Positions 6,679 to 64,000 of a stretch of DNA of 64,000 nucleotides are shown here, one piece after another (position 1 is the stretch's first letter; the number at the start of each line of letters is the position of its first letter). Below the pieces are notes generated by a model. It searched no databases, was not told where the DNA came from, and was given only the letters and a program-made list of their open reading frames with translations. Made by a program: the position numbers and the translations under genes. The DNA is taken from NCBI GenBank assembly GCA_963575655.1, contig CAUYTY010000250.1:1-64000 (forward strand), written 5' to 3'. The stretch comes from Gammaproteobacteria bacterium (GTDB taxonomy: Bacteria; Pseudomonadota; Gammaproteobacteria; CAIRSR01).

Positions 6679-6742
6679 GGCAGTGTCCTTGATTGACAAT
6701 TGACGGCTACGAACAATTATAGAAACGAAATGTTGTCGGAAA

Positions 6743-6829
6743 ATAGGCCTTGGTCGTCTTTCCGTTAGGTGTCATCATCTTACTATGAGTTAGTAGGATG
6801 ATACCTGACAAGACAACAACCAAGGCCTG
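6743..6829. repeat. large imperfect inverted repeat, possible terminator or MITE remnant
   Basis: Long imperfect hairpin: the arm starting TAGGCCTTGGTCGTC pairs with the arm ending GACAACAACCAAGGCCTG, and AGGTGTCATCATC pairs with GGATGATACCT. It lies downstream of the secreted-protein gene and upstream of the receptor gene on the same strand, so it could end one transcript or be an inserted element. Confidence 0.6.
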
Positions 6830-6865
6830 TGGGCAAATTACCAAGTTTCCGATAATACCAATAGA

Positions 6866-48263: not shown

Positions 48264-48523
48264 GACAGGCATCTCCTGGCGGGGATAGGGGCAGCGGTTG
48301 GGGTAGTACCCAGAGATGAGTTGGCTGATTCTAGCATTTTCTGTAGTTGTTTCTGCCAACCATGAGGCCACTGACTGTTCGAGATGCGTTTCAAGTGGCG
48401 CATCCACGGTAGAATGCCAACAGCCCCCTTCAATGCAAACTCAATGGTAATCGGGTCGTGTCTGTAAGGGGATACTATTACCTCTACGAAGGTATCTAAC
48501 TTTACCTTGCTCAGGATTCTTTT

Positions 48524-48979
48524 ATGAATAGGCATACTCTGCCGTTTTTTCTGGCCTTATTATTGACGGCCGGTATTCTTTCAACCACCGCGTGCTCTGA
48601 ACAAGCCGCACCTATAACGAGGACCAGTAGCGTGAATGAACTAATTAAAACCGATGTGAAACTGGGAGAGGGCGATGTAGCAACGACCGGTAAGAATGTA
48701 ACGGTTCATTACACCGGTTGGTTATATGATGCCGATGCCGCTGATCATCATGGTAAGAAATTTGATAGTTCTCGTGACCGTGATGAGCCATTTTCTTTCC
48801 CGTTGGGGGCTGGTCGGGTGATTATGGGTTGGGATCAGGGCGTAGCAGGTATGAAGATTGGGGGGCAGCGCACCTTGATCATTCCCCCGGATCTTGGTTA
48901 TGGCGCACGTGGTGCCGGTCGGGTAATTCCGCCGAATGCAACGCTGGTGTTTGATGTTGAATTGTTAGCGGTGCGCTAG
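48524..48979 (+). CDS. FKBP-type peptidyl-prolyl isomerase lipoprotein
   Basis: Protein-folding isomerase. 151 residues: lipoprotein signal peptide with lipid cysteine at 24 ([11 protein letters not shown]), then one FKBP domain: [72 protein letters not shown] and [10 protein letters not shown]. The active-site aromatic and acidic residues of FKBP12 are kept. Probably anchored in the periplasmic face of a membrane. AGGA lies seven bases before the ATG. Confidence 0.95.
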
Positions 48980-49025
48980 CGATTTACCTCCCCCCGTTGG
49001 GAGGGAGAGTCAACGATTAACATAA

Positions 49026-49126
49026 TAGACCTTATCGGAAACCCCCTACCTAGCTCTGCCGGACAACGCAACCTCATGATTTATATTGACTGTGGTGGGT
49101 GATGAGGAGGTTTCCGATAAGGTCTA
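49026..49126. repeat. MITE-like element, family C
   Basis: 101 bp with 18-bp perfect terminal inverted repeats, TAGACCTTATCGGAAACC and its complement. It shares its ends with the 168-bp element at 54544-54711, but the interiors are unrelated. It contains no coding capacity. Confidence 0.8.
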
Positions 49127-49135
49127 ATGAATAAG

Positions 49136-49192
49136 AAACGGGGTCATCCTTTAGTCGGTTTGAGTCGAGTCGAAGGGGGATCCCGTTTTTTA
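49136..49192 (+). terminator. possible rho-independent terminator
   Basis: AAACGGGGTCATCC pairs imperfectly with GGGGGATCCCGTTT, which is followed by a run of T. It lies downstream of the FKBP gene and immediately before the CusF-like gene. The loop is long, so strength is uncertain. Confidence 0.45.
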
Positions 49193-49205
49193 TATTCTCT
49201 CCATA

Positions 49206-49559
49206 ATGAAGATACAAGCCATGAGAATTGTCTCCATCCTGGTTGTTCTCGTCAGCGTAGGTTTCTCCGCACACCATGTGGTTGCCGCAGATAACGTTGT
49301 TCATGGTAACCCAAGCGTGGTGCAAGCGCCGGCGGATGTTCCATTGAGCGAAGGGTTAGTGAAGAGGGTAAATAAAGAGACCGGTAAAGTTGTACTGTCC
49401 CATGGCCCACTGCCTAATGGTATGCCCGCCATGACTATGGCCTTTCGGGTTAGAGAAGCTAGTTGGATCGATAGTATGAAGGAAGGTCAAAAGATTCTCT
49501 TTGCCGTTGCCGACGTGAATGGCGCCATGACCGTGATACGGTTTGAACCAATAAAATAA
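49206..49559 (+). CDS. CusF-like periplasmic copper/silver-binding protein
   Basis: 117 residues with a signal peptide (RIVSILVVLVSVGFSAHHVV, cut after AA) and a CusF-type OB-fold domain. The metal site appears as LSHGPLPNGMPAMTMAFRV, with the His and two Met pattern of CusF. CusF carries Cu(I)/Ag(I) to the CusCBA pump, and cusC/cusB-like genes follow 310 bases downstream across a repeat. An alternative ATG at 49221 fits a GAAG site about equally. The stop TAA is the first three bases of the adjacent family A repeat. Confidence 0.88.
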   Translation: MKIQAMRIVSILVVLVSVGFSAHHVVAADNVVHGNPSVVQAPADVPLSEGLVKRVNKETGKVVLSHGPLPNGMPAMTMAFRVREASWIDSMKEGQKILFAVADVNGAMTVIRFEPIK

Positions 49560-49704
49560 CCCAAGTTGCCACCTATTCAAAATTCGGGATCGCATCCAAT
49601 CGTCCCCCTCAATCCCCCCGTAAACGGGGGGAGGTCTGCGGCCTACTCCCTCCCCGTTTACGGGGAGGGCTGGGGAGGGGGCAAGTGGGTGGCAACTTGG
49701 GTTA
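49557..49704. repeat. family A palindromic repeat, long form
   Basis: 148 bp with ends TAACCCAAGTTGCCACCTA and TGGGTGGCAACTTGGGTTA. The body contains CCCCCCGTAAACGGGGGG and CTCCCCGTTTACGGGGAG palindromes. An inverted near-copy is at 54279-54427 and a half copy at 1-69. It overlaps the stop codon of the CusF-like gene. Confidence 0.88.
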
Positions 49705-49734
49705 AAATAGTCCAAGTTGCTATTTGGTATCTGG

Positions 49735-49811
49735 TCGAAAACTCCAATCTTGTGTTTTGCAACCCGGCTAGCAATCCGCAGGGTTGCAAAACACAAGGTT
49801 GGAGTTTTCGA
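49735..49811. repeat. long hairpin, family E
   Basis: Near-perfect 77-bp inverted repeat: TCGAAAACTCCAATCTTGTG with TTTTGCAACCC on one arm and the complement (GGGTTGCAAAACACAAG...GAGTTTTCGA) on the other. A diverged relative is nested in the element at 41023-41190. Confidence 0.75.
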
Positions 49812-49869
49812 TCAAGCACAACGAGGTGTCGCGGGTTAGGTGGATATTCGGTAAACGGGAAGTGTGGGT

Positions 49870-51147
49870 ATGAAATTATTCAGCAATTCCTCGAGTTTTT
49901 GGTACGTTGTCGTTGTCGCTATGGTGTGTTGTGCCGCACAGGCACGGGAAGAATCGCCGCCGGGTAGTAATGTGGAAAGTCTATTGGCCCTGGCTTGGGA
50001 AAGGAATCCCGAACATCTCGGCATTCGCCATGAGGTGGAAGTAGCTAACGAACGAGTTACGCCGGCGGGCGCCCTGCCCGATCCGAAGTTTCGAGTGGAA
50101 TTACGAGACTTGACGCGCATGGGTAATCAGGATCCTACCCTTTCTCCTAATCGCGTCGGTAGTACGCGCTATCTGCTTATGCAGGACATCCCCTGGTTTG
50201 GCAAGCGTGATCTAAAACGCGAGCTAGCCGAACTTGAAGCGGAAAGTGCCCAGGGACGGGCCTTAGATGTATGGAACAATATCGCTGCCAAGATTAAAAC
50301 AACCTACGCCCAGCTCTATTATCTCCATCGCAACGAGCAACTAACCCGCGAGATTCTCGAATTGATGGTGCGGCTCGAGAAAATTGCCCAGATGCGTTAC
50401 GCCAATGCCCTTTCCGCCCAGCAGGATGTCATCCGTGCCCAGGTAGAACAGACCAATCTGCGCAATGAATTGATCTCCCTAGACACCGAGCATCACCATC
50501 TACATACCCGCATGAACTCTTTGTTGGCACGACCGGTGATGGCCCCACTGGCCGCCCCAAAGGAGCTACGTCCTTTTCCTTCTCTGGCCCAAGTGGATTA
50601 CTCCGTGCTTGAGGGACGGGTCCGTGCGCACAACCCGTTATTGTCATCGGATGAGGCGCGGATTAAAGCAGCGGGAAAGAGTCGCGAGCTTACCTATAAG
50701 AATCGTTATCCCGACTTTACGATTGGGATTTCGCCCATTCAATACCAGAATTCGGTCAGGGAGTGGGAGGTGATGCTTGAGATTAATCTCCCCTTGCAGC
50801 AATCCTCACGACGTGCCCAGGAACGTGAGGCGGAGGCTAGCCTTTCTGCCGCTCACTCGCGTTGGGAGGCAACTGCTAACCAGGTGCTTGCTGATTTCTC
50901 CGAGAATCTTGCCGCAATGGATAGCGCACGCAAAACCGAGTCACTGATTACCGGGGCATTGTTGCCGCAAGCCGAGATTACCTTTCAAGCGGCACTGGCT
51001 GGTTATGAGACAGGTAAAGTGGATTTTGCTACCTTACTCGATGCCCAGCGGCAAATTCGTCAAGCTAAGCAAAACCGAATCAAAGTCCAGGCCGAGGGAC
51101 AGGCGCGTTTAGCGGAGATTGAGCGACTCTTGGGGGACGACCTATGA
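49870..51147 (+). CDS. outer-membrane efflux protein (CusC/TolC family)
   Basis: 425-residue outer-membrane channel protein. It has a signal peptide (YVVVVAMVCCAAQA), an LLALAWERNPEHLGIRHEVE start typical of OEP domains, and two long coiled-coil hairpins (AELEAESAQGRALDVWNNIA; EREAEASLSAAHSRWEATAN). GYETGKVDFATLLDAQRQIR is the family's C-terminal signature. The ATG at 49870 has GGAAG seven bases upstream. The stop overlaps the start of the adaptor gene as ATGA. With the next gene it forms two of three parts of a heavy-metal RND pump. Confidence 0.93.
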   Translation: MKLFSNSSSFWYVVVVAMVCCAAQAREESPPGSNVESLLALAWERNPEHLGIRHEVEVANERVTPAGALPDPKFRVELRDLTRMGNQDPTLSPNRVGSTRYLLMQDIPWFGKRDLKRELAELEAESAQGRALDVWNNIAAKIKTTYAQLYYLHRNEQLTREILELMVRLEKIAQMRYANALSAQQDVIRAQVEQTNLRNELISLDTEHHHLHTRMNSLLARPVMAPLAAPKELRPFPSLAQVDYSVLEGRVRAHNPLLSSDEARIKAAGKSRELTYKNRYPDFTIGISPIQYQNSVREWEVMLEINLPLQQSSRRAQEREAEASLSAAHSRWEATANQVLADFSENLAAMDSARKTESLITGALLPQAEITFQAALAGYETGKVDFATLLDAQRQIRQAKQNRIKVQAEGQARLAEIERLLGDDL

Positions 51148-52721
51148 AACGAGGGACGAGATTTGTCATGGGTAGTTTGATAGCAACCGTGATTGTCCTA
51201 TTGGTGGCGGGGGGTGGTTATTGGCTAGGTAATCAGGCTGCGCTGAGTCGTGTGGAATTAACGAGTGTTGCTCCCCGTAGCGAGTTGGTACAGCGCAAAT
51301 TGCTTTACTACCGTAATCCCATGGGTCTATCTGATATCTCGTCGGCCCCGAAGAAAGACTCCATGGGAATGGATTATGTCCCGGTCTATGAAGATGAGCA
51401 GAATGACGCATCGGTTCCAGAAAATCAGCTCAAGATTACTGCGGACAATGTACAGAAACTGGGTGTAAAAACCGAGTTGGCCAGTTTACGTTCCTTGGAT
51501 GCAATCGTTCGCGCCGCTGCCGGTCGTATTGAGCCAGACGAGCGTCGTCTGTATACGATTTCTCCCAAGTTCGAGGGTTATATTGATCGCCTATACGTTA
51601 ATGTAACTGGTCAGCCAGTGGAGAAAGGGCAGCCATTATTTGAGGTCTATAGCCCGGAATTGGTATCGGCCCAACGTGAATACGCGATTGCCATTCAGGG
51701 GGTTAATGCCCTCAAGAAAGCGAGTGGTGAGGTTCAAGCCAGTATGCAGCAGTTAGCCAATTCGAGCTTGGCGCGTCTCAAGAACTGGGATATTTCCGAG
51801 GAGCAGCTCAAGGTTTTGGCTAAATCAGGGGAGGCCAAACACACCCTAACCTTTCGTTCGCCGGTAAACGGGATCATCACTGAGAAGAAGGCGTTGCCTG
51901 GAATGCGTTTCATGCCAGGGGAGGTTCTTTATCAGATTGCCGATCTATCCACCGTCTGGGTGATTGCCGATGTCTTTGAGTCGGATCTTGGGCTGATCAA
52001 GTCTGGAATGAAGACTAAGATCAAAATCAATGCCTATCCCGATCAGATATTTGAGGGGATGGTGACCTACATCTATCCGATATTAAAGGCAGAGACTCGT
52101 ACCATTCCGGTGCGGGTTGAATTGGCCAATCCTGGTATTTTGATCAAGCCGGGGATGTTTGCGGTGGTGGAGTTCTTGATCAAGAGCAAAGGGGTCGTAG
52201 TCACGGTACCGGTATCGGCGGTGATTGATAGTGGGACTCGTCAGATTGTCTTTGTGGAGCTCAACGAGGGGCGTTATGAAGCGCGTGAGGTTAAGCTTGG
52301 TGCTCGGGGAAATAACTACGTTGAGGTGCTGGAGGGAATCAAGGATCGTGAATCGGTAGTGGTCTCCGCTAATTTTCTGATTGACGCAGAGAGCAATCTC
52401 AAGGCCGCGCTCCGTAGTTTTAACCACACCACTCAGGTGGATGGAAAGGCTGTGCCGAGCAAACCAAACTCGACGAATGCCGGACATCGAGCAGAAGGCA
52501 CGGTGGATGATATTGATGCAACGGCGGGGACAATTAGCATTAGTCATGGTCCGGTGGAAAGTCTCAAATGGCCAGCAATGACGATGGAGTTTCAGGCAGC
52601 CAATCATGCGCTTCTCAAGAATCTAAAACCTGGTGCGCCGGTTGCCTTCGAGTTTGTGGAACGCAAGCAGGGTGAATGGGTTGTCACCAGCATAAGGCCC
52701 ATTAGCAAGGTGATACCGTAG
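51144..52721 (+). CDS. CusB-type periplasmic adaptor with heavy-metal domain and fused CusF domain
   Basis: 525 residues: N-terminal membrane anchor (about 10-30), a heavy-metal-binding motif LYYRNPMGLSDISSAPKKDS with MGMDYVPVYE, the adaptor barrel-sandwich domain (RIEPDERRLYTISPKFEGYI; LYVNVTGQPVEKGQPLFEVY), a helical hairpin, beta-barrel and membrane-proximal domains, and a C-terminal CusF-like domain (about 455-525; TVDDIDATAGTISISHGPVE, LKWPAMTMEFQ). Fusion of the copper chaperone to the adaptor should pass metal directly to the pump. The pump gene (cusA) does not follow; a repeat region and wecA do. Confidence 0.93.
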   Translation: MKRGTRFVMGSLIATVIVLLVAGGGYWLGNQAALSRVELTSVAPRSELVQRKLLYYRNPMGLSDISSAPKKDSMGMDYVPVYEDEQNDASVPENQLKITADNVQKLGVKTELASLRSLDAIVRAAAGRIEPDERRLYTISPKFEGYIDRLYVNVTGQPVEKGQPLFEVYSPELVSAQREYAIAIQGVNALKKASGEVQASMQQLANSSLARLKNWDISEEQLKVLAKSGEAKHTLTFRSPVNGIITEKKALPGMRFMPGEVLYQIADLSTVWVIADVFESDLGLIKSGMKTKIKINAYPDQIFEGMVTYIYPILKAETRTIPVRVELANPGILIKPGMFAVVEFLIKSKGVVVTVPVSAVIDSGTRQIVFVELNEGRYEAREVKLGARGNNYVEVLEGIKDRESVVVSANFLIDAESNLKAALRSFNHTTQVDGKAVPSKPNSTNAGHRAEGTVDDIDATAGTISISHGPVESLKWPAMTMEFQAANHALLKNLKPGAPVAFEFVERKQGEWVVTSIRPISKVIP

Positions 52722-52729
52722 GAGTCAGC

Positions 52730-52900
52730 GTAGGATGCGGTGAGGAAGAACCCCCCGCATCAATTCGCGTCACGCCCCATCCTCGATAACTATCTCAGGG
52801 TTACGTACCCAATCCAGGCAATACACACCATCGCACATAGGCGTAGAAGTCGGACAACGCGAATGATGCGGTTCGTTCCTCACCGCATCCTTGTATCTAC
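52730..52900. repeat. family B repeats as a facing pair
   Basis: GTAGGATGCGGTGAGGAAGA at the left and CGGTTCGTTCCTCACCGCATCC at the right form an inverted pair about 125 bases apart. A similar pair is at 63421-63575, and a single copy at 16858. The region 52722-52957 holds no gene. Confidence 0.7.
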
Positions 52901-52957
52901 GGGGGCTGACCTTGGTCAGAATTAGCGCAAGGAGGGTTTAACGGAGGTATTTCTCGT

Positions 52958-54208
52958 TTATGGGGTTGGTGTCCCCAAGGAATCCTCGATATCGTCTCTA
53001 ACCGGGAGGTTGCTACGCGCCGACGAATAGTTTTTCGTGGCGGAATAACGGGACGAGGCGGTCGCCGTTGAGGGAGTGAAAGTCGCGGAGTTTTTAGCGG
53101 TTGAATTACGGAGGGAGTGGCGACGTAGGGCCATGAGAATGGTCTTCAGCAACTCCTGGTGTACGGTGATCCAAAGGTAACCAGCAAAGATGGTGAGAAA
53201 CAGCAAACACGAGGTAATCTCGGGTACACCAAGAATCTCCAGTATCACCCCAATCAGCCCAAAAATAATGGCCATGGTGAAAATAATAATCACCGTCCCG
53301 GAAACGTCGTGTTGAATGGGTTGTGATGGGTCCGTCTGCCGTGGAATGGATAGTTGTTCCATTAGCACATGGTGGAGGTGTCCACGATCTGCCGCAAAAG
53401 GGGATTGTTTATTCGTCATCCGTCGGATCATTACTGAAAGAGTATCAAACAACGGTACCGCCAGGATCCACAAGGCAGTAACCGGCGCTAGGGCACGGTG
53501 TTCGCCTTGGGATAGATCCACCGCAAACCAGCACAACATAAAACCAAGAAACATACTCCCGGCATCCCCCATAAAGACCAACGCAAAAGGTCGACCCGGT
53601 AGGCGAAGATTAAACAAGAGAAAGGCAAGCACTGCGGTGCCGAGGGTGGCCAATACCATTAGATTCGTTTGGTGGGCAGTGAGGCTGGCAAGGAGAGCAA
53701 AAAATAAAAGAGATATCAACGACAATCCACCTGCAAGGCCATCAACCCCATCGATCATATTGAAGGCGTTGATGACTCCAACCGTAGCAAAGATGGTAAA
53801 GGGCAGCGCCAAGGGGCCAAGCGTAATGTCGCTTGCCCCGAATAGGGCGCCAAGACTCTCGATAGACCTCCCCCCCAGGAAATACATACTCATGGCCGCT
53901 AGAATCTGACCAATGATGCGTGGCCATGCCCTCAATTCGTGAAAATCATCGAAGGCCCCTAACGCCACTAATAAGAAGGCACCAACCAGTAGCCCGAAAA
54001 TTCCTGGAAAATATAATTTATTGAGGATAATAGCAATTACAAAGGCGCCAAACATAGCAATGCCCCCCACCAAAGGCGTGTTGTCTCCGTGCCATTTCCG
54101 ACCACCGGGCGCATCTACCAAGCCAATCCTCTTGGCAAACGGACGAAGGGACAGTATCAGCAGAATACCGGTACCAAAGGTAACTAGGACTCCCAATAAT
54201 TCTTCCAT
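52958..54208 (-). CDS. wecA: undecaprenyl-phosphate N-acetylglucosaminyl-1-phosphate transferase, WecA type
   Basis: Polytopic membrane enzyme that starts O-antigen or common-antigen lipid carriers. 416 residues with about 11 membrane segments and the family motifs: DAPGGRKWHGDNTPLVGG, GAFDDFHELRAWPRIIGQ, INAFNMIDGVDGLAGGLSL, LVFMGDAGSMFLGF and the RGHLHHVLM cytoplasmic histidines. The C-terminal tail (about 365-416) is extra, polar and Ser/Thr-rich. The ATG at 54208 (MEELLG) follows AGGGG by about ten bases. Confidence 0.93.
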   Translation of the reverse strand: MEELLGVLVTFGTGILLILSLRPFAKRIGLVDAPGGRKWHGDNTPLVGGIAMFGAFVIAIILNKLYFPGIFGLLVGAFLLVALGAFDDFHELRAWPRIIGQILAAMSMYFLGGRSIESLGALFGASDITLGPLALPFTIFATVGVINAFNMIDGVDGLAGGLSLISLLFFALLASLTAHQTNLMVLATLGTAVLAFLLFNLRLPGRPFALVFMGDAGSMFLGFMLCWFAVDLSQGEHRALAPVTALWILAVPLFDTLSVMIRRMTNKQSPFAADRGHLHHVLMEQLSIPRQTDPSQPIQHDVSGTVIIIFTMAIIFGLIGVILEILGVPEITSCLLFLTIFAGYLWITVHQELLKTILMALRRHSLRNSTAKNSATFTPSTATASSRYSATKNYSSARSNLPVRDDIEDSLGTPTP

Positions 54209-54278
54209 TTTACTATTACCCCTCAAAGTCTTAGGCCGGACCTCTAGGAAAATTACTCTGCCCCAAGTTATTATTATT

Positions 54279-54427
54279 TAACCCAAGTTGCCCCCTACTT
54301 GCCCCCTTCCCTAGCCCTCCCCGTAAACGGGGAGGGAGTAGGCCGCAGACCTCCCCCCGTTTACGGGGGGATTGAGGGGGACGATTGGATGCGATCCCGA
54401 ATTTTGAATAGGTGGCAACTTGGGTTA
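54279..54427. repeat. family A palindromic repeat, long form
   Basis: 149 bp, ends TAACCCAAGTTGCCCCCTA and TAGGTGGCAACTTGGGTTA. It is a near-identical inverted copy of 49557-49704. It lies upstream of wecA in a gene-free region. Confidence 0.88.
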
Positions 54428-54543
54428 TTTATAATGGGAGGATGAACATCTCATACGGATAATGCGAATGGTTAGCTAGCTTTGGATAGTCGGTACTCCT
54501 GAATATTCTGTTATTGGTTGCCGTCTTTAATGAGGAGACTCAA

Positions 54544-54711
54544 TAGACATTATCGGAAACCTCACCCCCGCCCCCCTCTCCTTAACAGGAGAGGGGGAGA
54601 ATTATTCCGTTGTTATGCTTAACTCCTGAACGGAACAGGCAAAAAATCTCCCCCTCTCCTGTTAAGGAGAGGGGGGCGGGGGGTGAGGTTTTGGGTTTCC
54701 GATAATGTCTA
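54544..54711. repeat. MITE-like element, family C
   Basis: 168 bp with perfect ends TAGACATTATCGGAAACC and complement, matching 49026-49126 except for one base. The arms continue inward as long G/C-rich complements (CCCCCTCTCCTTAACAGGAG with its partner), so the whole element could fold into one hairpin. Confidence 0.85.
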
Positions 54712-54789
54712 ATAAGTAGTCGCTATGGCAGAAAAAATTGGTAACCCCTTACTGGGGCAATCCGTCAAGCGTGGATGGCTATCCACTCA

Positions 54790-54891
54790 GGCAACAATCG
54801 GCAAATAATATACCAACTGGCTGATTTACCCTCTGTGTCACGCCAAAGGGCGGGAGGGGGTTGGCTGGTGTGTTATTTACAGATTGTTGCC
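54790..54891. repeat. imperfect inverted repeat
   Basis: GGCAACAATCGGCAAATAAT at the left pairs with GTGTTATTTACAGATTGTTGCC at the right, with ACCAAC/GTTGGCTGGT inside. No coding content. Confidence 0.6.
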
Positions 54892-55610
54892 TTAACCTAC
54901 AATACCTGTTTTTACGTATCGCTCCTATGTTTCTAACGCAGAAGACGAAAATGCCTCTCTCCCAGAGGGAGAGGGGAGGAAGGTGCGCTAGACAGTCCTT
55001 GGGTTAGGCAAACGAGGCGTCGCGGGTTAGGTGGATAGCCAGCGTGGTATCGAGAGTGGCCCGTGAGGGCGAGATCACGCTCGGTGATTTGTGCCCATCG
55101 CTTTCCTCTCTTCCAACGAGGTGTGATTGAGAGGATAAGAACACCCCTAACTTAATTCATAACGTCATGATTAGCAAAACAATATCACGACCATGCGGCT
55201 AAGTTATCACACAGTTCAGTGTACGTTTTTAAAGCATCTCCACTGGCGATAATAACGCAGTTGCTAGAACGAGCCAACGCAAGCATGCGGCAGAACAGTG
55301 GGGTAATAATTCTCCTTGTGTTTTGTCCTGTTGAATGATTGCCTACTTCCAGGTAAAACCTTTAATGAGTAACGGGAATTGCGTCTGCGTCCTAACCCTA
55401 GCTGATATTGCTGGTGAAATCTGGGAAGTTCTTGTGGGTAGGGTGTAGTGAGTACCACGGTTGAGTGTGGTCTGTCGTTACCTTGCCGACGCCACCCCGC
55501 GAGTCCCAAAGTATCACTTATAGATTATGGTTTTAGTGAGCCTGTCCCGAGTAGATTTTTTACCAAGATCAAGCATGTATGTCAATGTAATTGATCACTG
55601 AAGAGTGCCC

Positions 55611-58600
55611 GTGAACAACGATTTTAGAAATCTGAAATTTCCGACCACGGACCTTATTTTCTGGTTTGCGCTGGTTGGTGTGATCGTTCTTAGTGGCGCC
55701 TATGGTTCGTATCGGTTTTTTGCCGACCGGCTGATTGGCCATGCACAAGAGGATTTGCAGGGTCTCGCCAAAATAAAAACAACACAGATCGAATCATTGT
55801 TAACTGGTTGTCATGGTAATGGAGAAGTTTTTGTCGTACGCCCCTCTGTTTGGCGGACCTTGAGTGGTATCGACGTGGCGCAAGAGAGGTTACGTCTTGA
55901 AAAAGTTATTACTGATACCATGTGGGGAGATGGCTATCGTCGGATTATCGTGGTTGATACTTCTTTACAGATCGTTGCTCCCACCTCCTCCAATCCTCTT
56001 GAATTGATTGAACGCTTGGCATTGCAGAAGGCCATGCAGACCCGAGATTTTGAATTAGTCAATCTGCATCGTACCCGTGGGGATACGATCTTCTATGGCA
56101 TTGCCCATCCGGTCTTTGCGAATGGTAATGAAAATGATACGGTGGTCGGGGCAGTTTACCTCGAAAGGGATGCCCAGCAGGATCTCTATCCATTGCTAGA
56201 ATTCCGCTCAACTTCTTCTTCGTCGATGGAGACTATTCTCATTCAACGTGAAGGTAGTGATGTCGTATTTCTGAGTCGATTACGTTTCAAGCCAGATGCC
56301 TTGCCGCTATCGTTGCGTTTGTCCGTCGATAATGCGCTCATAGGGGCATCGCTGGATGAAGAACCCGGTCTACTGAGAGGGCTCGATTATCGGGGTGTGG
56401 AAACCGTTAGGGCCATCCAACCCGTTTCCAACACTCCTTGGATCATGGTCACGAAGATCAACCGCGCCGAGATTGAGCATCCCGCCAAAATGGTAGGAAT
56501 CATCATCTTCGTGCTCGCGGTCATTTTATGGTTGTTGCTTACAAATATTTTCCGCCTATTCTGGTATCGTCGCTCATTGGGAATGGTTGTGGAACAATCG
56601 GCAATTACCAGGCGTTACGCGGCAGCACTACGAACCTCTATTGATGGTTATCTGGTCGTGGACCAATCGGGTCGCATCGTTGATAGCAATATTGCATCGA
56701 TTGAGATCACCGGTTACCAAGCAGACGAATTACTTACTTTGGGAATTGCTGACCTGGAGGTAATAGCCTCGTCCGACGAAGACTATGCTCGAATGCAACG
56801 TATTATGGTGTCCGGCAATGAGCGGTTGTTGACGCGCTGGAAACGTAAGGATGGAATGATTATTGATATTGAGGCCAGTCTCTCTTTTGCCGATGGCTAC
56901 TTTTTTGTCTTTGTCCGAGATATTACCGAACGTAAACAGGCAGAGGTAACCCTGCGTCGCCAACATGAACTGCTCGCGTGCATTGAACGATTGCAAAACC
57001 TATTTATTGGAGAAGGCGCCCCGGGCTTGATGTTTGATAGCATACTGATCGATATTCTGAAATTGACGAGCAGTGAATGTGGTTTTATTGCCGAATTAAT
57101 GACTGATGATGAGGGGCGACCACATCAACAGATGCTGGCGATCTCCAATGTTGCCCGGGATGATGACACTCGTCATTTCTACGAGCAGCATGTCCCCCCT
57201 GGATTCCATTTTGACCAATTCGACGGGTTACATTCGGCAATCATTGTTAGCAATGACGTGATTATTTTCAATAATCCCGCGCAAGATCCGCGTAATTATG
57301 GTTGTCGATTGGCAGGGCATCCGCCTTTGAATACGTTTTTGGGTCTTCCGCTACGTCGTCAGAGAGAAATTATCGGCAGCATTGGTCTGGCCAATCGTTC
57401 GGGTGGTTATGATGAGATCTTCGTCGAGTATTTGCAGCCGATTGTTGACGTGGTTTCCCAGGTTATTACTGCCTATCATAATGAACGGCATCGTTTGGAA
57501 ACGGAGGAGGCGTTGCGGCAGAGTAAGGTACGCTTTGACAGTTTGGTTAGTTGTGTCCCCGTAGGGGTCTACATATTTACCTTCCATGCCAACGGTGAGA
57601 TGGGCTTTGAATACGTTAGTCCGCGTTTCTGCCAGATCTTTGATATCAGTGAGCAATTGGCGTTAGATAATTTTAACAACGTCTTCTCTATTGTTCACCC
57701 TGATGATCTCGATAGTTTGACACGTTCTAATATGGAGGCGCGTGAGACACTGGTGCCCTATCGCTGGGAGGGGCGCTTTGTTATTCGCGGGGAGACTCAT
57801 TATCTTCGTATTGAATCCGATCCGACACCGTTGATGGATGGTGGGAGTCGTTGGAACGGGGTCGTTGTCGATATCAGCGACCGCAAACATAGCGAAGAAG
57901 AATTGGCGCGATCGAATGCTGAGCTAGCACAATTTGCTTATGTGGCCTCTCATGACTTGCGTCAACCACTGCGTACGATTAGTAGCTATCTTGCATTGCT
58001 CCAACAGAAACTTGCGGCCAATTTGGATGAGGATAGCGTGCTCTATATGGAGTTTTGCATCGAGGGGGCCAAACGGATGGATGCCCTTATTCTCGGCCTG
58101 CTTGAATATTCGCGTGTGGGACGAATGGAACAGGCACCGGAGATCATCGCATTGCATGATGTCATTGCTTTGGCGCTCGGGAATCTTGAGCTTTCCGTTG
58201 CAGAAGCCGCAGCAGATATCACTGTGGCAGAGGAACTACCCTCGATTGTTGGTTATCCTAGCGAATTGACGCGACTATTTCAGAATTTGATTGGCAATTC
58301 GATTAATTACCGAGCAAGGCATCGGCCACTCGGTATCAATATTGGTTGGCGTGACGAGGGAAACGATTATGTGATCTGGGTCCGTGACAATGGTGTCGGG
58401 ATTGCCCTCAAGGATTTTGAGCGTGCCTTTGGTATCTTTCAGCGTTTGGTCAGTCATAATCATGAAGGTACTGGAATTGGTTTGGCCATTTGTCGCAAAG
58501 TCGTTGAGCACCATGGTGGACGCATCTGGATTGAATCCGTTCTGGGTGAGGGAAGTTCGTTCCTAATGACCTTTCCCAAGGCAAGTGTGGCATCTCCGAC

Positions 58601-58637
58601 TGGCACCAGCGGAGAATTATCGTTAGGGAGTAACTAA
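55611..58637 (+). CDS. membrane sensor histidine kinase with PAS and GAF domains
   Basis: 1008 residues. Two membrane segments (about 15-37 and 298-322) flank a periplasmic, cache-like domain. In the cytoplasm come a PAS domain (ALRTSIDGYLVVDQSGRIVD; ends DITERKQAEVTL), a GAF domain (about 460-640, LLACIERLQNLFIGEGAPGL), a second PAS/PAC (ends DISDRKHSEEEL), a HisKA domain with phospho-acceptor His in FAYVASHDLRQPLRTIS, and an ATPase domain (NLIGNSINYRA, WVRDNGVGIALKDFERAFGI, GTGIGLAICRKVV). The kinase core is of the phytochrome-associated type. I prefer the GTG at 55611 because GAAGAG lies about five bases upstream. The stop overlaps the next start as TAATG. Confidence 0.93.
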   Translation: MNNDFRNLKFPTTDLIFWFALVGVIVLSGAYGSYRFFADRLIGHAQEDLQGLAKIKTTQIESLLTGCHGNGEVFVVRPSVWRTLSGIDVAQERLRLEKVITDTMWGDGYRRIIVVDTSLQIVAPTSSNPLELIERLALQKAMQTRDFELVNLHRTRGDTIFYGIAHPVFANGNENDTVVGAVYLERDAQQDLYPLLEFRSTSSSSMETILIQREGSDVVFLSRLRFKPDALPLSLRLSVDNALIGASLDEEPGLLRGLDYRGVETVRAIQPVSNTPWIMVTKINRAEIEHPAKMVGIIIFVLAVILWLLLTNIFRLFWYRRSLGMVVEQSAITRRYAAALRTSIDGYLVVDQSGRIVDSNIASIEITGYQADELLTLGIADLEVIASSDEDYARMQRIMVSGNERLLTRWKRKDGMIIDIEASLSFADGYFFVFVRDITERKQAEVTLRRQHELLACIERLQNLFIGEGAPGLMFDSILIDILKLTSSECGFIAELMTDDEGRPHQQMLAISNVARDDDTRHFYEQHVPPGFHFDQFDGLHSAIIVSNDVIIFNNPAQDPRNYGCRLAGHPPLNTFLGLPLRRQREIIGSIGLANRSGGYDEIFVEYLQPIVDVVSQVITAYHNERHRLETEEALRQSKVRFDSLVSCVPVGVYIFTFHANGEMGFEYVSPRFCQIFDISEQLALDNFNNVFSIVHPDDLDSLTRSNMEARETLVPYRWEGRFVIRGETHYLRIESDPTPLMDGGSRWNGVVVDISDRKHSEEELARSNAELAQFAYVASHDLRQPLRTISSYLALLQQKLAANLDEDSVLYMEFCIEGAKRMDALILGLLEYSRVGRMEQAPEIIALHDVIALALGNLELSVAEAAADITVAEELPSIVGYPSELTRLFQNLIGNSINYRARHRPLGINIGWRDEGNDYVIWVRDNGVGIALKDFERAFGIFQRLVSHNHEGTGIGLAICRKVVEHHGGRIWIESVLGEGSSFLMTFPKASVASPTGTSGELSLGSN

Positions 58638-59830
58638 TGTCCGAGATTTTCGCTTCTGTCGTGAGAGACTACATGCCACACGGTATGTGTCTATTGTGGG
58701 ATCCGTGGTTGCTCGGGCTGCATGTCGCATCCGATTTGGTGATCGCAACCGCTTATTTCTCAATCCCCATTGCATTGGGTTACTTCGCCTACCGTCGACG
58801 AGATCTACAGTTCCGGTGGTTGTTTGTCCTATTTGGGGTCTTCATCATGTCCTGTGGTACGACTCATATCTTGGGCGTGTGGATCCTGTGGCATCCTGCC
58901 TATTGGTTGGATGGATTGATTAAGGCAATTACTGCGCTAACCTCTTTGGTGACGGCTATTATTTTGTGGCCACTCATTCCCCGTGCGTTAGCTCTACCCA
59001 GTCCGGCCGATCTCGCTCAGGCAAATACCAAGCTGAAAGAGGAGATCAACGAACGGAAAATTATCGAGACTGCATTACGTAAAAGCGAGCAACGGCTACG
59101 TTTGCTCCTGGATTCGGTGGGGGAGGGAATCTTTGGTGTGGATCAAGTCGGACAGGTAACTTTTGTTAATCCGATGGCGATGCGTATGCTCAAAAGATCC
59201 GAGGAAGAGATAATTGGGTACCATTCTCATGGTTTATTTCACCGTTTACATGCGAATGGTTCATTCTATTCACCTGAGGATTGTCCCGTTCATGCCGCTT
59301 TGATGGATGGAGAGGCCCGTGGTGTGAATGGAGAGGTTTTTTGGTTGCCAGATGGGAGCAACTTCCCCGTTGAATATGTCTCCAATCCAATCAAGGATGG
59401 TGATGTCGTGCTGGGTGCTGTTGTCGTGTTCCGCGATATCTCAGAACGGTTGGCGATTGAGCAGTCGTTGCGTCGCGAGCGTGATTTTACCAAAGCGGTT
59501 ATTGACGGACTTCCAGGAGTTTTTTATGTCGTTACTCCTGAGGGTTTATTTGATCTATGGAATAGCGAGTTAGAAACGGTCACAGGGTATTCCGCCGAGG
59601 AAATTGGCGGGATGAGTCCACTCGATTTTTTCAGGAATGAAGAAAAGACATTGATTGCTGGTGCGATAGCACAAGTATTTGCCGAGGGAGTACGCAATGT
59701 CGAGGCATCGTTAGTGACTAAACGCGGTAGCGCCCTGGCTTATTATTTCACGGGGCGGCGATTGGGGGGGGGGGGGATACTGCCCGGTTGGTTGGTGTGG
59801 GTATTGATATCTCAGAACGGCGTCAATTAG
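58637..59830 (+). CDS. ethylene-receptor-like (ETR1-type) sensor kinase, N-terminal part before poly-G frameshift
   Basis: The first 100 residues hold three membrane helices matching the copper-containing ethylene-binding domain of ETR1. ASDLVIATAYFSIP and FIMSCGTTHIL give Asp33, Tyr40, Ile70, Cys73 and His77, each exactly eight positions after ETR1 Asp25, Tyr32, Ile62, Cys65 and His69. Two PAS domains follow (LLLDSVGEGIFGVDQVGQVT; VIDGLPGVFYVVTPEGLFDL). The frame then meets a run of 13 G (59764-59776), runs out of frame and stops at 59830. The kinase domain continues in the next frame (59788-60534). With 11 or 14 G the protein would be one chain (632 residues with 14 G). AGGGAG lies six bases before the ATG, which overlaps the previous stop. 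Confidence 0.9.
   Translation: MSEIFASVVRDYMPHGMCLLWDPWLLGLHVASDLVIATAYFSIPIALGYFAYRRRDLQFRWLFVLFGVFIMSCGTTHILGVWILWHPAYWLDGLIKAITALTSLVTAIILWPLIPRALALPSPADLAQANTKLKEEINERKIIETALRKSEQRLRLLLDSVGEGIFGVDQVGQVTFVNPMAMRMLKRSEEEIIGYHSHGLFHRLHANGSFYSPEDCPVHAALMDGEARGVNGEVFWLPDGSNFPVEYVSNPIKDGDVVLGAVVVFRDISERLAIEQSLRRERDFTKAVIDGLPGVFYVVTPEGLFDLWNSELETVTGYSAEEIGGMSPLDFFRNEEKTLIAGAIAQVFAEGVRNVEASLVTKRGSALAYYFTGRRLGGGGILPGWLVWVLISQNGVN
59764..59776 (+). other. homopolymer run of 13 G inside a sensor-kinase gene
   Basis: Thirteen consecutive G follow ATT in the frame GRRLGGGG. The length determines whether the kinase core is translated. Such tracts are typical slipped-strand contingency sites and also typical sequencing-error sites. 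Confidence 0.9.
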
Positions 59831-60534
59831 AGCGTGCGCTCCGTCAATCCAATCAGGAATTGGAACGATTCGCTGATGTGTCGGCCCATCATCTAATGGA
59901 ACCTGCGCGTCGGCTTGCGACTTTTTCTCAAAGGCTGAGGGTAAATCTTGCTGGACGAGTTGATGACCCTGATGCGCTGCTCTCGCTGGATTTTATTGAG
60001 GATCAGGCGCAGCGCTTACGAGTCTTGCTCCGCGATATTCAGCTCTATCTTGTGGCAGATCGAACGCTGGGAGAGACTGAGGCGGTGGACGCGGATCGTA
60101 TCGTTCACGCAGTGGTCGAGCAGATGGCCGAACCCATCCGAGAGGCGGGCGCAACTATAACGCTGGAAAAACTGCCGCCGGCCTTGATCGATGCCCCGCG
60201 CCTCTCTAATCTCTTCAGCATTTTGTTAGAAAATGCTTTGCAGTATCGTTGTACTGATCTACCCTCTGCCATTCGAATTGAGGGCAGTGAGATCAACTGT
60301 GTTGTCCAATACCGAGTTATCGATAATGGTTGCGGGATTCCTGCGCAGTATCGAGAGCGAGTATACCAAGTGTTTGAACGTCTTCATCCCGGATCCAATC
60401 AAGATAGTACCGGCATCGGTCTTTCTATTGTCCGTCGCATTGTTACCACCCGTGATGGACGGACCTGGATCGAGGAAACGCCAGGGGGCGGAACAACGGT
60501 TATTATTGAATTGCCAGCAGGAGCGTCATTATAA
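59788..60534 (+). CDS. histidine kinase core of the ETR1-like sensor, out of frame with its N-terminus
   Basis: Continuation of the 58637 sensor after the poly-G tract. It covers the end of a PAS/PAC (VGVGIDISERRQLERAL), a HisKA-like helix pair with the likely phospho-acceptor in FADVSAHHLMEPARR, and an ATPase domain (LFSILLENALQYR, VIDNGCGIPAQYRERVYQVF, STGIGLSIVRRIV). An ATG/GTG-like start exists near 59788 but no good ribosome site, so separate translation is doubtful. The stop overlaps the response-regulator start (TAATG). Confidence 0.85.
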   Translation: MVGVGIDISERRQLERALRQSNQELERFADVSAHHLMEPARRLATFSQRLRVNLAGRVDDPDALLSLDFIEDQAQRLRVLLRDIQLYLVADRTLGETEAVDADRIVHAVVEQMAEPIREAGATITLEKLPPALIDAPRLSNLFSILLENALQYRCTDLPSAIRIEGSEINCVVQYRVIDNGCGIPAQYRERVYQVFERLHPGSNQDSTGIGLSIVRRIVTTRDGRTWIEETPGGGTTVIIELPAGASL

Positions 60535-60983
60535 TGAAATATTCGATTTCGCCATTTGTTGTTTTACTTGTGGAAGACCAGCTTGCCGATGCGCATTTGG
60601 TCCGTGTAGCATTAAGGGAAAATCGTATTTTAACTGACTTGCATCATGTCTTTGATGGAGTGGAAGCCTTGGAGTTTTTACATCGACAGGGTGAGCGTTA
60701 CAAAAATGTGCCACGACCGGATCTCATCCTGCTCGATCTCAATATGCCGAGGATGAATGGCCAGGAATTTCTTACAGAGATTAAGAAACAAGAGGCATTT
60801 AGCGCTATTCCGGTCGTGGTGATGACTACCTCGGAGGTCGAGCGGGACGTGGTAGCGTCCTATCGATTGGGTGCGGCTGGTTTTATCGTTAAACCAGTAG
60901 ACATTGCTCAGTTCATGGCTACCGTGAGAAAATTGGAAGACTATTGGTGTACTGTAGTCCGACTTCCAAAAAAGGTAGATTGA
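60534..60983 (+). CDS. CheY/Rcp1-like single-domain response regulator
   Basis: 149 residues, receiver domain only. Acidic pocket Glu14-Asp15 (VVLLVEDQLADA), phospho-acceptor Asp68 (DLILLDLNMPRMNG), Thr/Ser switch in VVVMTTSEVE, and the conserved lysine in GAAGFIVKPVD. The extended loop before the Asp and the short form match Rcp1, the partner of phytochrome-type kinases, as expected from the two upstream kinases with similar cores. The gene starts on the kinase stop codon, with GGAG ten bases upstream. No output domain, so it must act by protein contact or phosphotransfer. Confidence 0.94.
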   Translation: MKYSISPFVVLLVEDQLADAHLVRVALRENRILTDLHHVFDGVEALEFLHRQGERYKNVPRPDLILLDLNMPRMNGQEFLTEIKKQEAFSAIPVVVMTTSEVERDVVASYRLGAAGFIVKPVDIAQFMATVRKLEDYWCTVVRLPKKVD

Positions 60984-61062
60984 TCTGGGGCGCAATAGAA
61001 AAAACACGGATTGTTGGTGTGTGTCTGCTCAATTCAAGTTGTTACCTGTGATTCAATTCGGT

Positions 61063-61093
61063 CGTCATTTCGGCAGGGATTGCCGGAATGACG
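61063..61093. repeat. short hairpin of the GTCATTCCGGC type
   Basis: GTCATTTCGGCA and TGCCGGAATGAC form a 12-bp stem around a short loop, 80 bases after the response-regulator stop. It may act as a terminator without a T-run, or be a dispersed repeat. The gap 60984-61271 has no gene. Confidence 0.6.
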
Positions 61094-61271
61094 AACCAAT
61101 GGGTTGTAAATAACCGATTGGTATTTAATAGGCCTGAGGCATTGGCGAGAATCCTAAACTTCAGCCCTGTCTCTTTCTCCTTAGCGATAAAGGGAGGAAA
61201 TTTTTGTCTGTTTCGTCCGATAGAGGTATATTTACACACAGATAGTGTGGTGTGGCTAGACGATCGAGGAT

Positions 61272-62336
61272 ATGGCAAAAACTGAATTGAAACTGTGTCT
61301 GGGGGCGCCATCGCGTGTGGATGGACGATCTGGGCACCTGTGGTTTCCAACCCTTCATCCCTTAGGGGGGGAGGGGGTTCTCTGTATCGCGGCGGTCACC
61401 TCCGATCGGCCCCAGGGTGTGTGGCCGGCTGCCGCCTATTGGTCCCGAGATAGTGGTTCTTCTTGGCAGAAAGTCCCCGAGGTTATCCACTATGCCTTGG
61501 CCTCGATCTTGATCAAACCGGGGGACCTTTTATTGCTGCCCTACGAGCTTGCCCCTGCCTCGTGTGTAGATCATTGCAGTGCTACAGCGCAGGGAACTCG
61601 TCTCATTCTCAAAGATAGCGGTACCGTTACCGCAACCCCGCAGCAGGTGCAATTCGATAATTTCCCCCGAGATATCGCAATTCATTCCCACGGCGGGTTG
61701 CGCATGGTGACCGGTGGCAATGTGCTCGGTCTGGCAGATGGTTCTCTATTTACCACGCTGTATGGCCGATTCATCGGGGAGGAGCGCTATTCGCTATTGG
61801 GAATGGTGAGTCACGATAATGGTTACCATTGGTCGTTTCGGGCACAGCTCGCCGACGGTTGGGACCTCCCCAATAGTCCAGAAGGACCTAGCGAATCCGC
61901 CACCATTACCGGCACTGATGGAAGATTACTTTGTCTTTATCGAGTGGGTAGTGGGGCAGGCCGGAGCTACTATCGCAGCGAAAGTACCGATGATGGCTAT
62001 CACTGGAGTTCGCCACGTCCGGTATTGTGTGTGGGGTCGGTTAAACCCCAATTGATCAGTCTTGAAAACGGTACCCTACTTTTAACAGGGGGCCGACCTG
62101 GTTTGACTTTGTGGATTTCCCACGATGATGGCTTGGTCTGGCGTTCTTTCGATTTGGTGGCCCACCACAATGCCACGATGAGCGATCCTACCCAGTACTT
62201 CAAGGAGCCTTCGGCAAAGCCCAGCATAACTACCAGTTATAGTGCGCTCTGTCCGTTGGGTCCCAAAACGGCATTGGTGTGTTACGACCGGTTGGGTAAT
62301 GGTTGGGGGGGGGGCTCCTGGTCCCCATGGAACTGA
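61272..62336 (+). CDS. sialidase-like BNR-repeat protein, 3' end shifted by a poly-G tract
   Basis: 354 residues predicted to form a six-bladed beta-propeller. Four Asp-box motifs of form SxDxGxxW are visible: SRDSGSSW, SHDNGYHW, STDDGYHW and SHDDGLVW. An RxxxxxxS start (RSGHLWFPTLHP) and several Arg residues suit exo-alpha-sialidases, but the FRIP motif and the arginine triad cannot be confirmed by eye. No signal peptide. The last residues GWGGGSWSPWN come from a frame entered at a run of 10 G (62305-62314). With 9 or 12 G the frame reads GAPGPHGTEDVIYCLRVDIV and ends at 62418, which looks like the true terminus (final strand). The ribosome site is weak. Confidence 0.85.
   Translation: MAKTELKLCLGAPSRVDGRSGHLWFPTLHPLGGEGVLCIAAVTSDRPQGVWPAAAYWSRDSGSSWQKVPEVIHYALASILIKPGDLLLLPYELAPASCVDHCSATAQGTRLILKDSGTVTATPQQVQFDNFPRDIAIHSHGGLRMVTGGNVLGLADGSLFTTLYGRFIGEERYSLLGMVSHDNGYHWSFRAQLADGWDLPNSPEGPSESATITGTDGRLLCLYRVGSGAGRSYYRSESTDDGYHWSSPRPVLCVGSVKPQLISLENGTLLLTGGRPGLTLWISHDDGLVWRSFDLVAHHNATMSDPTQYFKEPSAKPSITTSYSALCPLGPKTALVCYDRLGNGWGGGSWSPWN
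62305..62314 (+). other. homopolymer run of 10 G near the 3' end of the sialidase-like gene
   Basis: Ten G after GGTT. The present length removes about 35 residues of plausible C-terminus; one fewer or two more G restores it. Confidence 0.85.
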
Positions 62337-62437
62337 AGATGTGATTTACTGTCTGCGGGTGGATATTGTGTCCTCCCTTACTACCGGTGAGCATAATTCC
62401 TCAAGTGAATACAGATGAATAAATGGAGATAACTATA

Positions 62438-63382
62438 ATGTTGGCGATACTAAAATTTTTCTTCACACAAAAAGAAACGCTCCTGGGAATACTGCTGGGA
62501 TTGATGTTGGGAGTGGAGGCCCGTGGCGAAACAACTGGGGAACTATTATGGCCATTGATAACAGAAAACAAGCCCCAAGGCTCTCAATTAATTTCCGAGA
62601 CACCAAGCATCCCTCCACCTGCTCCGTCTTCTCCATCACTAGAGCGGTTGTCGTTTGAACCGGAAATGGTACTGATCCCCGCAGGAAGTTTTATGATGGG
62701 CTCGCCACCCAGCGAAAAGGGTCGTGATTCTGATGAAGAACCAGTTCACCTTGTGCAGATAGCGGCCTTTGAGATGGGCAGGTACGAGGTGACCTTTGCG
62801 CAATGGGATGTGTGTGCGGATGATGATGGTTGTAGCTATAAACCTAATGATAATGGTTGGGGACGTGGCAACCAACCCATCATTGGCGTTTCCTGGAATT
62901 ATGCTCAAGAATATGTGAATTGGTTGAGTCGTAAAACAGGTAAGCATTACCGATTACCGACCGAGGCTGAGTGGGAGTATGCCGCGCGCGCTGGGACTAC
63001 CTCGCCCTATTGGTGGGGTAACCAGGCCAGCCATGAAAGTGCGAATTATGGAAAGGATAAGTGTTGTGATGGGTTAGCGATTGGAAGGGATCAGTGGCAA
63101 TATACGGCGCCGGTAGGCTCGTTTAGTCCCAATCGCTGGGGGCTGTATGACACGGCGGGAAATGTCTGGGAATGGACGTGTTCCATCCATAAAGATCGCT
63201 ATGACGGTTCAGAACAGCGTTGTGATGATGGTAAGGATTTCTCGAAAGAACCGCGAGTAATTCGTGGTGGTTCCTGGTTCGATACCCCCGAAAATATTCG
63301 CGCAGCGGTCCATGATTGGCTTACCCCTGATTACCGAGATGTTAATACTGGTTTTCGCGTCGCTAGAATGTTGATACCTTAG
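62438..63382 (+). CDS. exported FGE/SUMF1-fold protein
   Basis: 314 residues from the ATG at 62438, which has GGAG nine bases upstream (another ATG at 62423 overlaps that site). An N-terminal hydrophobic segment (LLGILLGLMLGVEARG) suggests export or anchoring; a proline-rich linker follows (SIPPPAPSSPSL). The FGE-sulfatase domain has EMVLIPAGSFMMGSPPSEKG, MGRYEVTFAQWDVCADDDGC, YRLPTEAEWEYAARAG, GLYDTAGNVWEWT and RVIRGGSWFDTPENIRAAVH...NTGFRVARM. The catalytic cysteine pair of sulfatase-modifying FGE is absent. Several extra cysteines (CADDDGC, CC) suit a disulphide-bonded exported protein. A related fold is at 34750. Confidence 0.9.
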   Translation: MLAILKFFFTQKETLLGILLGLMLGVEARGETTGELLWPLITENKPQGSQLISETPSIPPPAPSSPSLERLSFEPEMVLIPAGSFMMGSPPSEKGRDSDEEPVHLVQIAAFEMGRYEVTFAQWDVCADDDGCSYKPNDNGWGRGNQPIIGVSWNYAQEYVNWLSRKTGKHYRLPTEAEWEYAARAGTTSPYWWGNQASHESANYGKDKCCDGLAIGRDQWQYTAPVGSFSPNRWGLYDTAGNVWEWTCSIHKDRYDGSEQRCDDGKDFSKEPRVIRGGSWFDTPENIRAAVHDWLTPDYRDVNTGFRVARMLIP

Positions 63383-63420
63383 AACCGAGAATTTTATAAT
63401 TTGTGCAATTGTAGGTAGGG

Positions 63421-63575
63421 ACCCGAATGCAGTGAGGAATAGACCGCATTATTCGCACTGTATTCAACCAGCGATGGTCATGCCATGGTTGTACACCAAA
63501 ATCAGAGAAATACATATTGTGCTAAAACATAGTCACTCGATTGATGTGGTTCGTTCCTCACTGTATCCTACGCGG
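63421..63575. repeat. family B repeats as a facing pair
   Basis: CGAATGCAGTGAGGAATAGA at the left and GGTTCGTTCCTCACTGTATCC at the right form an inverted pair like that at 52730-52900. Confidence 0.7.
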
Positions 63576-63587
63576 GTTTGAGCTAAC

Positions 63588-63680
63588 TAACGCAAGTTGC
63601 CACCTATTCGGTGAGAAACGAAAAGGCCTCTCTCCCTCCGGGAGGGGGGAGAAAATGGCGCTAGGTGGCGACTTGAGTTT
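63588..63680. repeat. family A palindromic repeat, short form, diverged
   Basis: TAACGCAAGTTGCCACCTA at the left, CTAGGTGGCGACTTGAGTTT at the right, with CGGTGAGAAACGAAAAGGCC and CTCCCTCCGGGAGGG inside. Confidence 0.82.
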
Positions 63681-63689
63681 GTTAGTCTG

Positions 63690-63810
63690 GAAGAACTTAG
63701 GCCATACTACCTTCCATGAATACGCAGCAAATTACCTTGATGAGGTGCTACGTTACACTCCGGAAAACCAGGACTTTCGGGGCGTGCGAGAAATTATGCG
63801 CAAGAAATAG
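63690..63810 (+). other. coding-like fragment after a repeat, possibly a gene remnant
   Basis: The open frame reads HTTFHEYAANYLDEVLRYTP and ends MRKK before a stop. Its upstream part runs through two repeats and is not credible coding sequence. It may be the tail of a gene whose front was lost, but I cannot name it. Confidence 0.25.
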
Positions 63811-63918
63811 AATGTTTCTAGAAGTTGTTCGTCCTTTCCCGTTGGGGGCGGGAGGGATTATGTTTTTCGGTTTCATCCTGACCTAGATTGCTACCTGCAC
63901 AATAAGTGGAAGTCTATG

Positions 63919-64000
63919 ATGCGTATCTCTTCGATCTTGGGTCTATGGTTTTTGATGATACTTAGCATGATTGCTTGGGGGGATACGTTACGGTTGTCTC
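63919..64000 (+). CDS. start of an exported protein, cut by the window edge
   Basis: ATG at 63919 with GGAAG six bases upstream (another ATG directly before it). The visible residues MRISSILGLWFLMILSMIAW and GDTLRLS look like a signal peptide and the first mature residues. Nothing more can be said of its function. Confidence 0.6.
   Translation, partial: MRISSILGLWFLMILSMIAWGDTLRLS

Follow-up and report, generated by a model that had tools for sequence, protein, structure and literature searches.

An ethylene-receptor-type sensor kinase in a gammaproteobacterium, with its assembled reading frame broken at a G run

Plant ETR1 combines its ethylene sensor with plant GAF, kinase and receiver domains and signals through CTR1. 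In bacteria, Synechocystis SynEtr1 acts as a receptor of both ethylene and light, and AzoEtr1 of Azospirillum brasilense is a 525-residue protein whose sensor domain binds ethylene, whose first 130 residues were used in the binding assays, and whose stop codon is overlapped by a regulator gene (PMC11819568). Cu(I) is held at ETR1 Cys65 and His69 according to PMC12744750, with the roles of these residues also given in PMC11819568, where D35, C75, H79 and K98 of AzoEtr1 correspond to D25, C65, H69 and K91 of AtETR1.

Here, we describe a receptor gene of this type in a gammaproteobacterium (assembly GCA_963575655.1, lineage CAIRSR01), encoded in a 64,000-nucleotide stretch of contig CAUYTY010000250.1 (positions 1–64,000, hereafter the window). 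We consider it probable that the gene encodes an ethylene receptor-kinase of the AzoEtr1/SynEtr1 kind, made as one chain of about 630 residues, and that the break in its reading frame at a run of 13 G is a length error or is bypassed. The sensor belongs to a known kind whose function has been demonstrated in other bacteria, and is in that sense ordinary; the unusual part is the set of frame-breaking G runs in the genome that carries it.

The receptor open reading frame (58637–59830, + strand) encodes 397 residues and begins with an ETR1_N domain followed by the start of a linker coil (58637–59050, +). The Pfam match (PF25487) covers residues 25–120 (58709–58996) at 137.2 bits (E 2.3e-40), against a cut-off of 27 bits. 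An AlphaFold2 model of the domain, built from ten input sequences, has three long helices of the membrane type (residues 23–53, 60–85 and 89–118) with a mean pLDDT of 82.8, falling to about 55 over the first 20 residues. No solved structure matched this model in a fold search at E 0.001, and a profile search at E 1 returned no solved relative of the domain. By profile search the domain is the only ETR1_N in the whole 4.2-Mb genome, and 14 control genomes gave no match to the ETR1_N model.

The original prediction had assigned a copper- and ethylene-binding domain of the ETR1 type to this frame, with Asp33, Tyr40, Ile70, Cys73 and His77 at a constant offset of eight from their plant counterparts. 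The residue positions are confirmed, and the domain assignment is well supported by the Pfam match, the presence of all the binding residues and 53% identity to an ethylene-binding receptor. All seven ligand residues lie at the ETR1 number plus eight: Asp33 (58733–58735, +); Tyr40, Ile43 and Pro44 in the stretch from Tyr40 to Pro44 (58754–58768, +), which correspond to ETR1 Tyr32, Ile35 and Pro36; and Ile70, Cys73 and His77 (58844–58867, +; ETR1 Ile62, Cys65 and His69), which form the predicted Cu(I) site. Asp33 aligns with ETR1 Asp25 and AzoEtr1 Asp35 (PMC11819568). With a constant offset of −2, AzoEtr1 Asp35, Tyr42, Ile45, Pro46, Ile72, Cys75, His79 and Lys98 all align with residues of the receptor, the last of them with Lys96 in helix 3 (58922–58924, +). 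Across an alignment of 24 ETR1_N domains, the full set of seven is kept in 15, and the Cys and the His are each kept in 22. Ethylene binding by the receptor domain is likely by homology.

Over 127 residues the domain is 52.8% identical to a 525-residue A. brasilense receptor (locus L227, strain MTCC4039), an open reading frame that fits the description of AzoEtr1. Both proteins begin with a three-helix domain that carries matching ligand residues, both contain PAS and histidine kinase modules, and in both cases a single-domain regulator gene overlaps the stop codon; AzoEtr1 differs in having one PAS domain rather than two and in its kinase, which has another sequence and lies in one frame. A second kinase directly upstream, present here, goes unnamed in the AzoEtr1 description consulted (PMC11819568). 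Cyanobacterial Etr1 proteins likewise carry an ETR1_N domain with all seven residues (60% identity for Kovacikia, 53% for Pseudanabaena; loci L228 and L229), but have other lengths and other neighbours. With plant ETR1, compared by residue number, the domain shares Asp25, Tyr32, Ile62, Cys65 and His69 at the offset of eight.

Beyond the sensor, the receptor frame contains two sensory-box stretches (NCBIfam TIGR00229). The first PAS domain spans residues 153–268 (59093–59440, +; Pfam), and the second (approximately 59471–59820, +; TIGR00229) crosses the frame break, its end being placed by a VGVGIDISER motif in the other frame. Three tightly packed genes, for a pair of sensor kinases and a single-domain regulator, make up the operon, as indicated by TAATG overlaps of stop and start codons at 58637 and 60534, with a GA-rich, Shine-Dalgarno-like stretch before both starts. 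The upstream gene (55605–58637, +) encodes a membrane-anchored histidine kinase of 1010 residues with PAS, GAF, PAS, HisKA and HATPase domains and a weak dCache match below the cut-off; its stop overlaps the receptor ATG. The downstream gene (60534–60983, +), whose ATG overlaps the stop of the kinase core, encodes a single-domain response regulator identified by profile matches. Its best PDB match is a response-regulator receiver protein and its second is Synechocystis Rcp1 (2.9e-31), with RcpA and RcpB ranking close behind, so that the Rcp1-like regulator predicted next to the receptor is indeed there, adjoining the kinase as in an Rcp1-type pair. Rcp1, RcpA and RcpB (1i3c, 1k68 and 1k66) are likewise single receiver domains; their partner is a phytochrome, whereas the partner here is an ethylene-type receptor. 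Regulators also adjoin the receptor gene in several other ETR1_N loci. An Rfam search of 48000–64000 gave no matches, and at the DNA level there was no match to plasmids.

The kinase core lies in a second frame. The sensor-domain frame stops at 59830 after its two PAS domains, while the frame encoding the kinase (59788–60534, +) is open for 251 codons past the frame-breaking run of 13 G (59764–59776, +). Were this run 11 or 14 G long, the sensor and kinase frames would meet at VGVGIDISER, where PAS domains usually end, and encode a chain of about 630 residues, as read from the sequence. The core has a HATPase match at 2e-20 (Pfam), intact N, G1 and G2 boxes and a conserved phospho-acceptor His, and bacteriophytochrome kinases are its second and third PDB matches, at about 1e-23. 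Its H-box (AHHLMEP) is divergent: it reads AHHL against S-H-D in all 13 other aligned kinases, with His in place of their Asp directly after the phospho-acceptor (13/13), and Pfam did not recognize a HisKA domain in the core even at E 10. The original prediction had joined the ethylene domain to PAS domains and a phytochrome-type kinase core. The PAS domains are indeed in frame with ETR1_N and the resemblance to phytochrome kinases stands, but the kinase is out of frame at the G run and joined to the sensor only if that run is 11 or 14 G long.

The three membrane helices would enclose a pocket where Cys73 and His77, placed by Asp33, hold Cu(I), and by homology this copper would bind ethylene. 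As the architecture and gene order suggest, the signal would then pass through the two PAS domains to the histidine kinase core, which would phosphorylate the adjacent Rcp1-like regulator, and the upstream PAS/GAF-type kinase probably feeds the same regulator. The architecture makes signalling from the kinase to this regulator likely.

Whether the break at the 13-G run is biological depends on how such runs behave across the genome, and it is probably not. The receptor's genome contains 105 runs of at least 10 G, against 0–17 in the other 55 genomes compared and 6 in a genome of the same genus (G001). We scored a G or C run if its best frame had 80 or more open codons on either side of it; in the receptor's own genome 100 of the 105 counted runs were listed, and scoring drew on those. 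The filter dropped 58 of 88 distinct G/C runs of at least 10 and 23 of 40 runs of length 9. Coding runs were in frame in 21/21 cases at length 7, 5/7 at length 8 and 11/17 at length 9, but at lengths of at least 10 in just 6 of 30 among the runs listed, a proportion not different from a random third (P 0.17). The 24 runs out of frame were shifted by one extra base in 19 cases; the receptor run, with two bases too many or one too few, departs from this commonest pattern. In two sister-genus genomes, by contrast, 18 of 19 runs of at least 10 were in frame (Fisher P 1.9e-7), while none of the three scorable runs in G001 was. The same filter dropped 3 of 6 runs in G001, 1 of 17 in G002 and 6 of 9 fetched runs in G003, where two of the 11 listed, at contig ends, were left out. 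A difference in sequencing method could account for this contrast between genomes. We rejected an error affecting homopolymers in general: at length 7, 16 of 17 A/T runs and all 21 G/C runs were in frame, which indicates that short runs are sound. Of A/T runs of 8 or more, one of two was in frame, too few for judging whether the fault is specific to G.

The genes broken at these runs include ordinary ones. Of the 30 out-of-frame runs at lengths of at least 9, one is the receptor run; for the other 29 the longer piece was searched with Pfam, and for five of these the shorter piece as well, with no match in one case. Both halves were identified for a single-copy purL, an RNase E/G gene and cysG; an SRP54-type GTPase, a PLP decarboxylase and one of two carB copies are also broken. 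In purL, single copy by PF18072, the break parts the FGAR-AT N-terminal domain from the linker; the run exceeds the homologous, interrupted stretch of three relatives (G001, G002 and G003) by exactly one base, and the frame encodes 1136 residues, compared with 1315–1330 in those genomes. In the RNase E/G gene a single domain is cut at profile position 100/105. As a true break in a single-copy purL would end de novo purine synthesis, we read such breaks as consensus-length errors or as bypassed in the cell; and because similar runs break ordinary genes genome-wide, the same holds as the likeliest account of the receptor run. Of the two carB-type genes, on contigs G000:C198 and G000:C242, one is interrupted by a run of 10 and the other is open for 1028 residues. 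Within the window, further runs lie at 62305–62314 (G) and 39690–39698 (nine C), and a BNR-repeat (sialidase-like) gene beside the operon (61272–62336) is broken near its end by a run of 10 G with one extra base. CAAGTAGGTGGC-type repeats occur in G-run-bearing copies at several contig ends.

The original prediction placed copper-handling genes (CusF-, CusB- and CusC-like) about 6–9 kb upstream. Such genes are present (49206–52721; Pfam matches to CusF, an outer-membrane efflux protein (OEP) and a CusB–CusF fusion), but they form a separate unit: a gene on the opposite strand (52958–54226) and a repeat-rich gap of 1.4 kb separate them from the receptor operon. This gap (54227–55604), 5' of the operon, has no open reading frame of at least 90 residues and contains several long palindromic repeats; among its nested palindromes are 42-nucleotide arms at 54565 and 54641 and others at 54279/54409 and 54789/54866. 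Searching the three copper proteins with phmmer against 28 other ETR1_N loci (321 kb in total, with flanks of about 4–10 kb, some cut by contig ends) gave one weak CusB-like match (1e-9) of the broad HlyD type. A copper link to the receptor is unsupported, and with the opposite-strand gene in between and no convincing recurrence at those 28 loci we rejected it.

We weighed several other readings. The receptor might be phase variable, its run slipping between 11 or 14 G, which give the full kinase, and other lengths, which give a kinase-less protein, thereby turning ethylene signalling on or off in single cells. A long homopolymer within a coding frame, here within the second PAS domain and flanked by intact sequence on either side, is what such a switch would look like; the number of long G runs in this genome, far above that in the 55 others, fits it as well, and poly-G switching is well known in other bacteria. 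The breaks, however, reach housekeeping genes (purL, the RNase E/G gene, cysG and a carB copy) rather than a contingency set, the shift of the out-of-frame runs is mostly +1, which suggests a systematic cause, and a mixture of lengths is not visible in a single assembly. Having scored all fetched coding G/C runs and found housekeeping genes broken likewise, we set phase variation aside as the main reading and regard it as unlikely; in the collection searched we found no paper on an ethylene receptor with phase variation. It is more doubtful still that the long runs, in housekeeping and sensory genes alike, are real and tolerated by the genus, with slippage of RNA polymerase or the ribosome restoring the frame in part of the products. 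If so, the receptor would be made both with and without its kinase, in a ratio set by slippage.

The break might also be fixed and real, leaving a 397-residue membrane sensor with PAS domains and a dead kinase. The assembly as it stands reads this way, and G001, the nearest sister species, either lost the domain or never carried it; yet 251 codons without a stop follow the break, the catalytic boxes are kept, the regulator still overlaps the kinase stop, and the same kind of break occurs in genes that are hardly dispensable, so we hold this to be very improbable. These observations agree better with a consensus-length error, or with slippage that the cell tolerates, than with a dead receptor. 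A different doubt concerns the ligand: the domain may hold copper and sense another cue, such as copper level, redox or light, with the upstream copper genes in its circuit. The metal site is the direct prediction from the residues, SynEtr1 senses both ethylene and light (PMC11819568), and CusF-type genes do lie 6–9 kb away. Against this, all the ethylene-binding residues are kept, beyond the Cys and His, and the copper genes are cut off by the opposite-strand gene and echoed by one weak match at the 28 other loci; we think this reading quite unlikely. An ethylene receptor-kinase with a mis-sized or bypassed G run is our preferred reading.

ETR1_N domains pass the cut-off in 6 of the 56 genomes that make up the relatives set and in 28 of 398 drawn from the phylum, and with the receptor domain as query 11 of 369 genomes of the class match at 1e-8, the receptor's own genome being included in each count. 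By profile search the domain is absent from the same-genus genome G001, so the receptor gene is no staple of the lineage. The phylogeny against cyanobacterial receptors that had been proposed as a check was run (24 rows, 139 columns) and has 15 of 21 inner branches open; within this mostly open tree, a supported clade (99/96) of the domains of the two family relatives excludes the receptor's row. A separate acquisition of the gene is compatible with these results. In the collection searched, no paper on an ethylene receptor in gammaproteobacteria was relevant by title. Elsewhere, locus L166 (genome G240) encodes a separate 198-residue ETR1_N protein (5151–5747) directly before a PAS/HisKA kinase (5751–7649), together with an Rcp1-like regulator, a receptor seemingly split naturally into two genes. 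At L161 (951–4034) and L164 (3406–5976), ETR1_N is fused to PAS and an output of the GGDEF/EAL type (by motif), which suggests ethylene input to cyclic-di-GMP turnover at these two loci.

Should the pattern of G runs belong to the genome itself and not to its assembly, essential genes would here tolerate frame-breaking runs, which would be unusual. For the receptor family, patchy hits and outputs that range from kinases to the GGDEF/EAL type (by motif) support a view of ethylene sensing as widespread but patchy among bacteria, to which the receptor described here adds a proteobacterial member whose nearest compared species lacks the ETR1_N domain.
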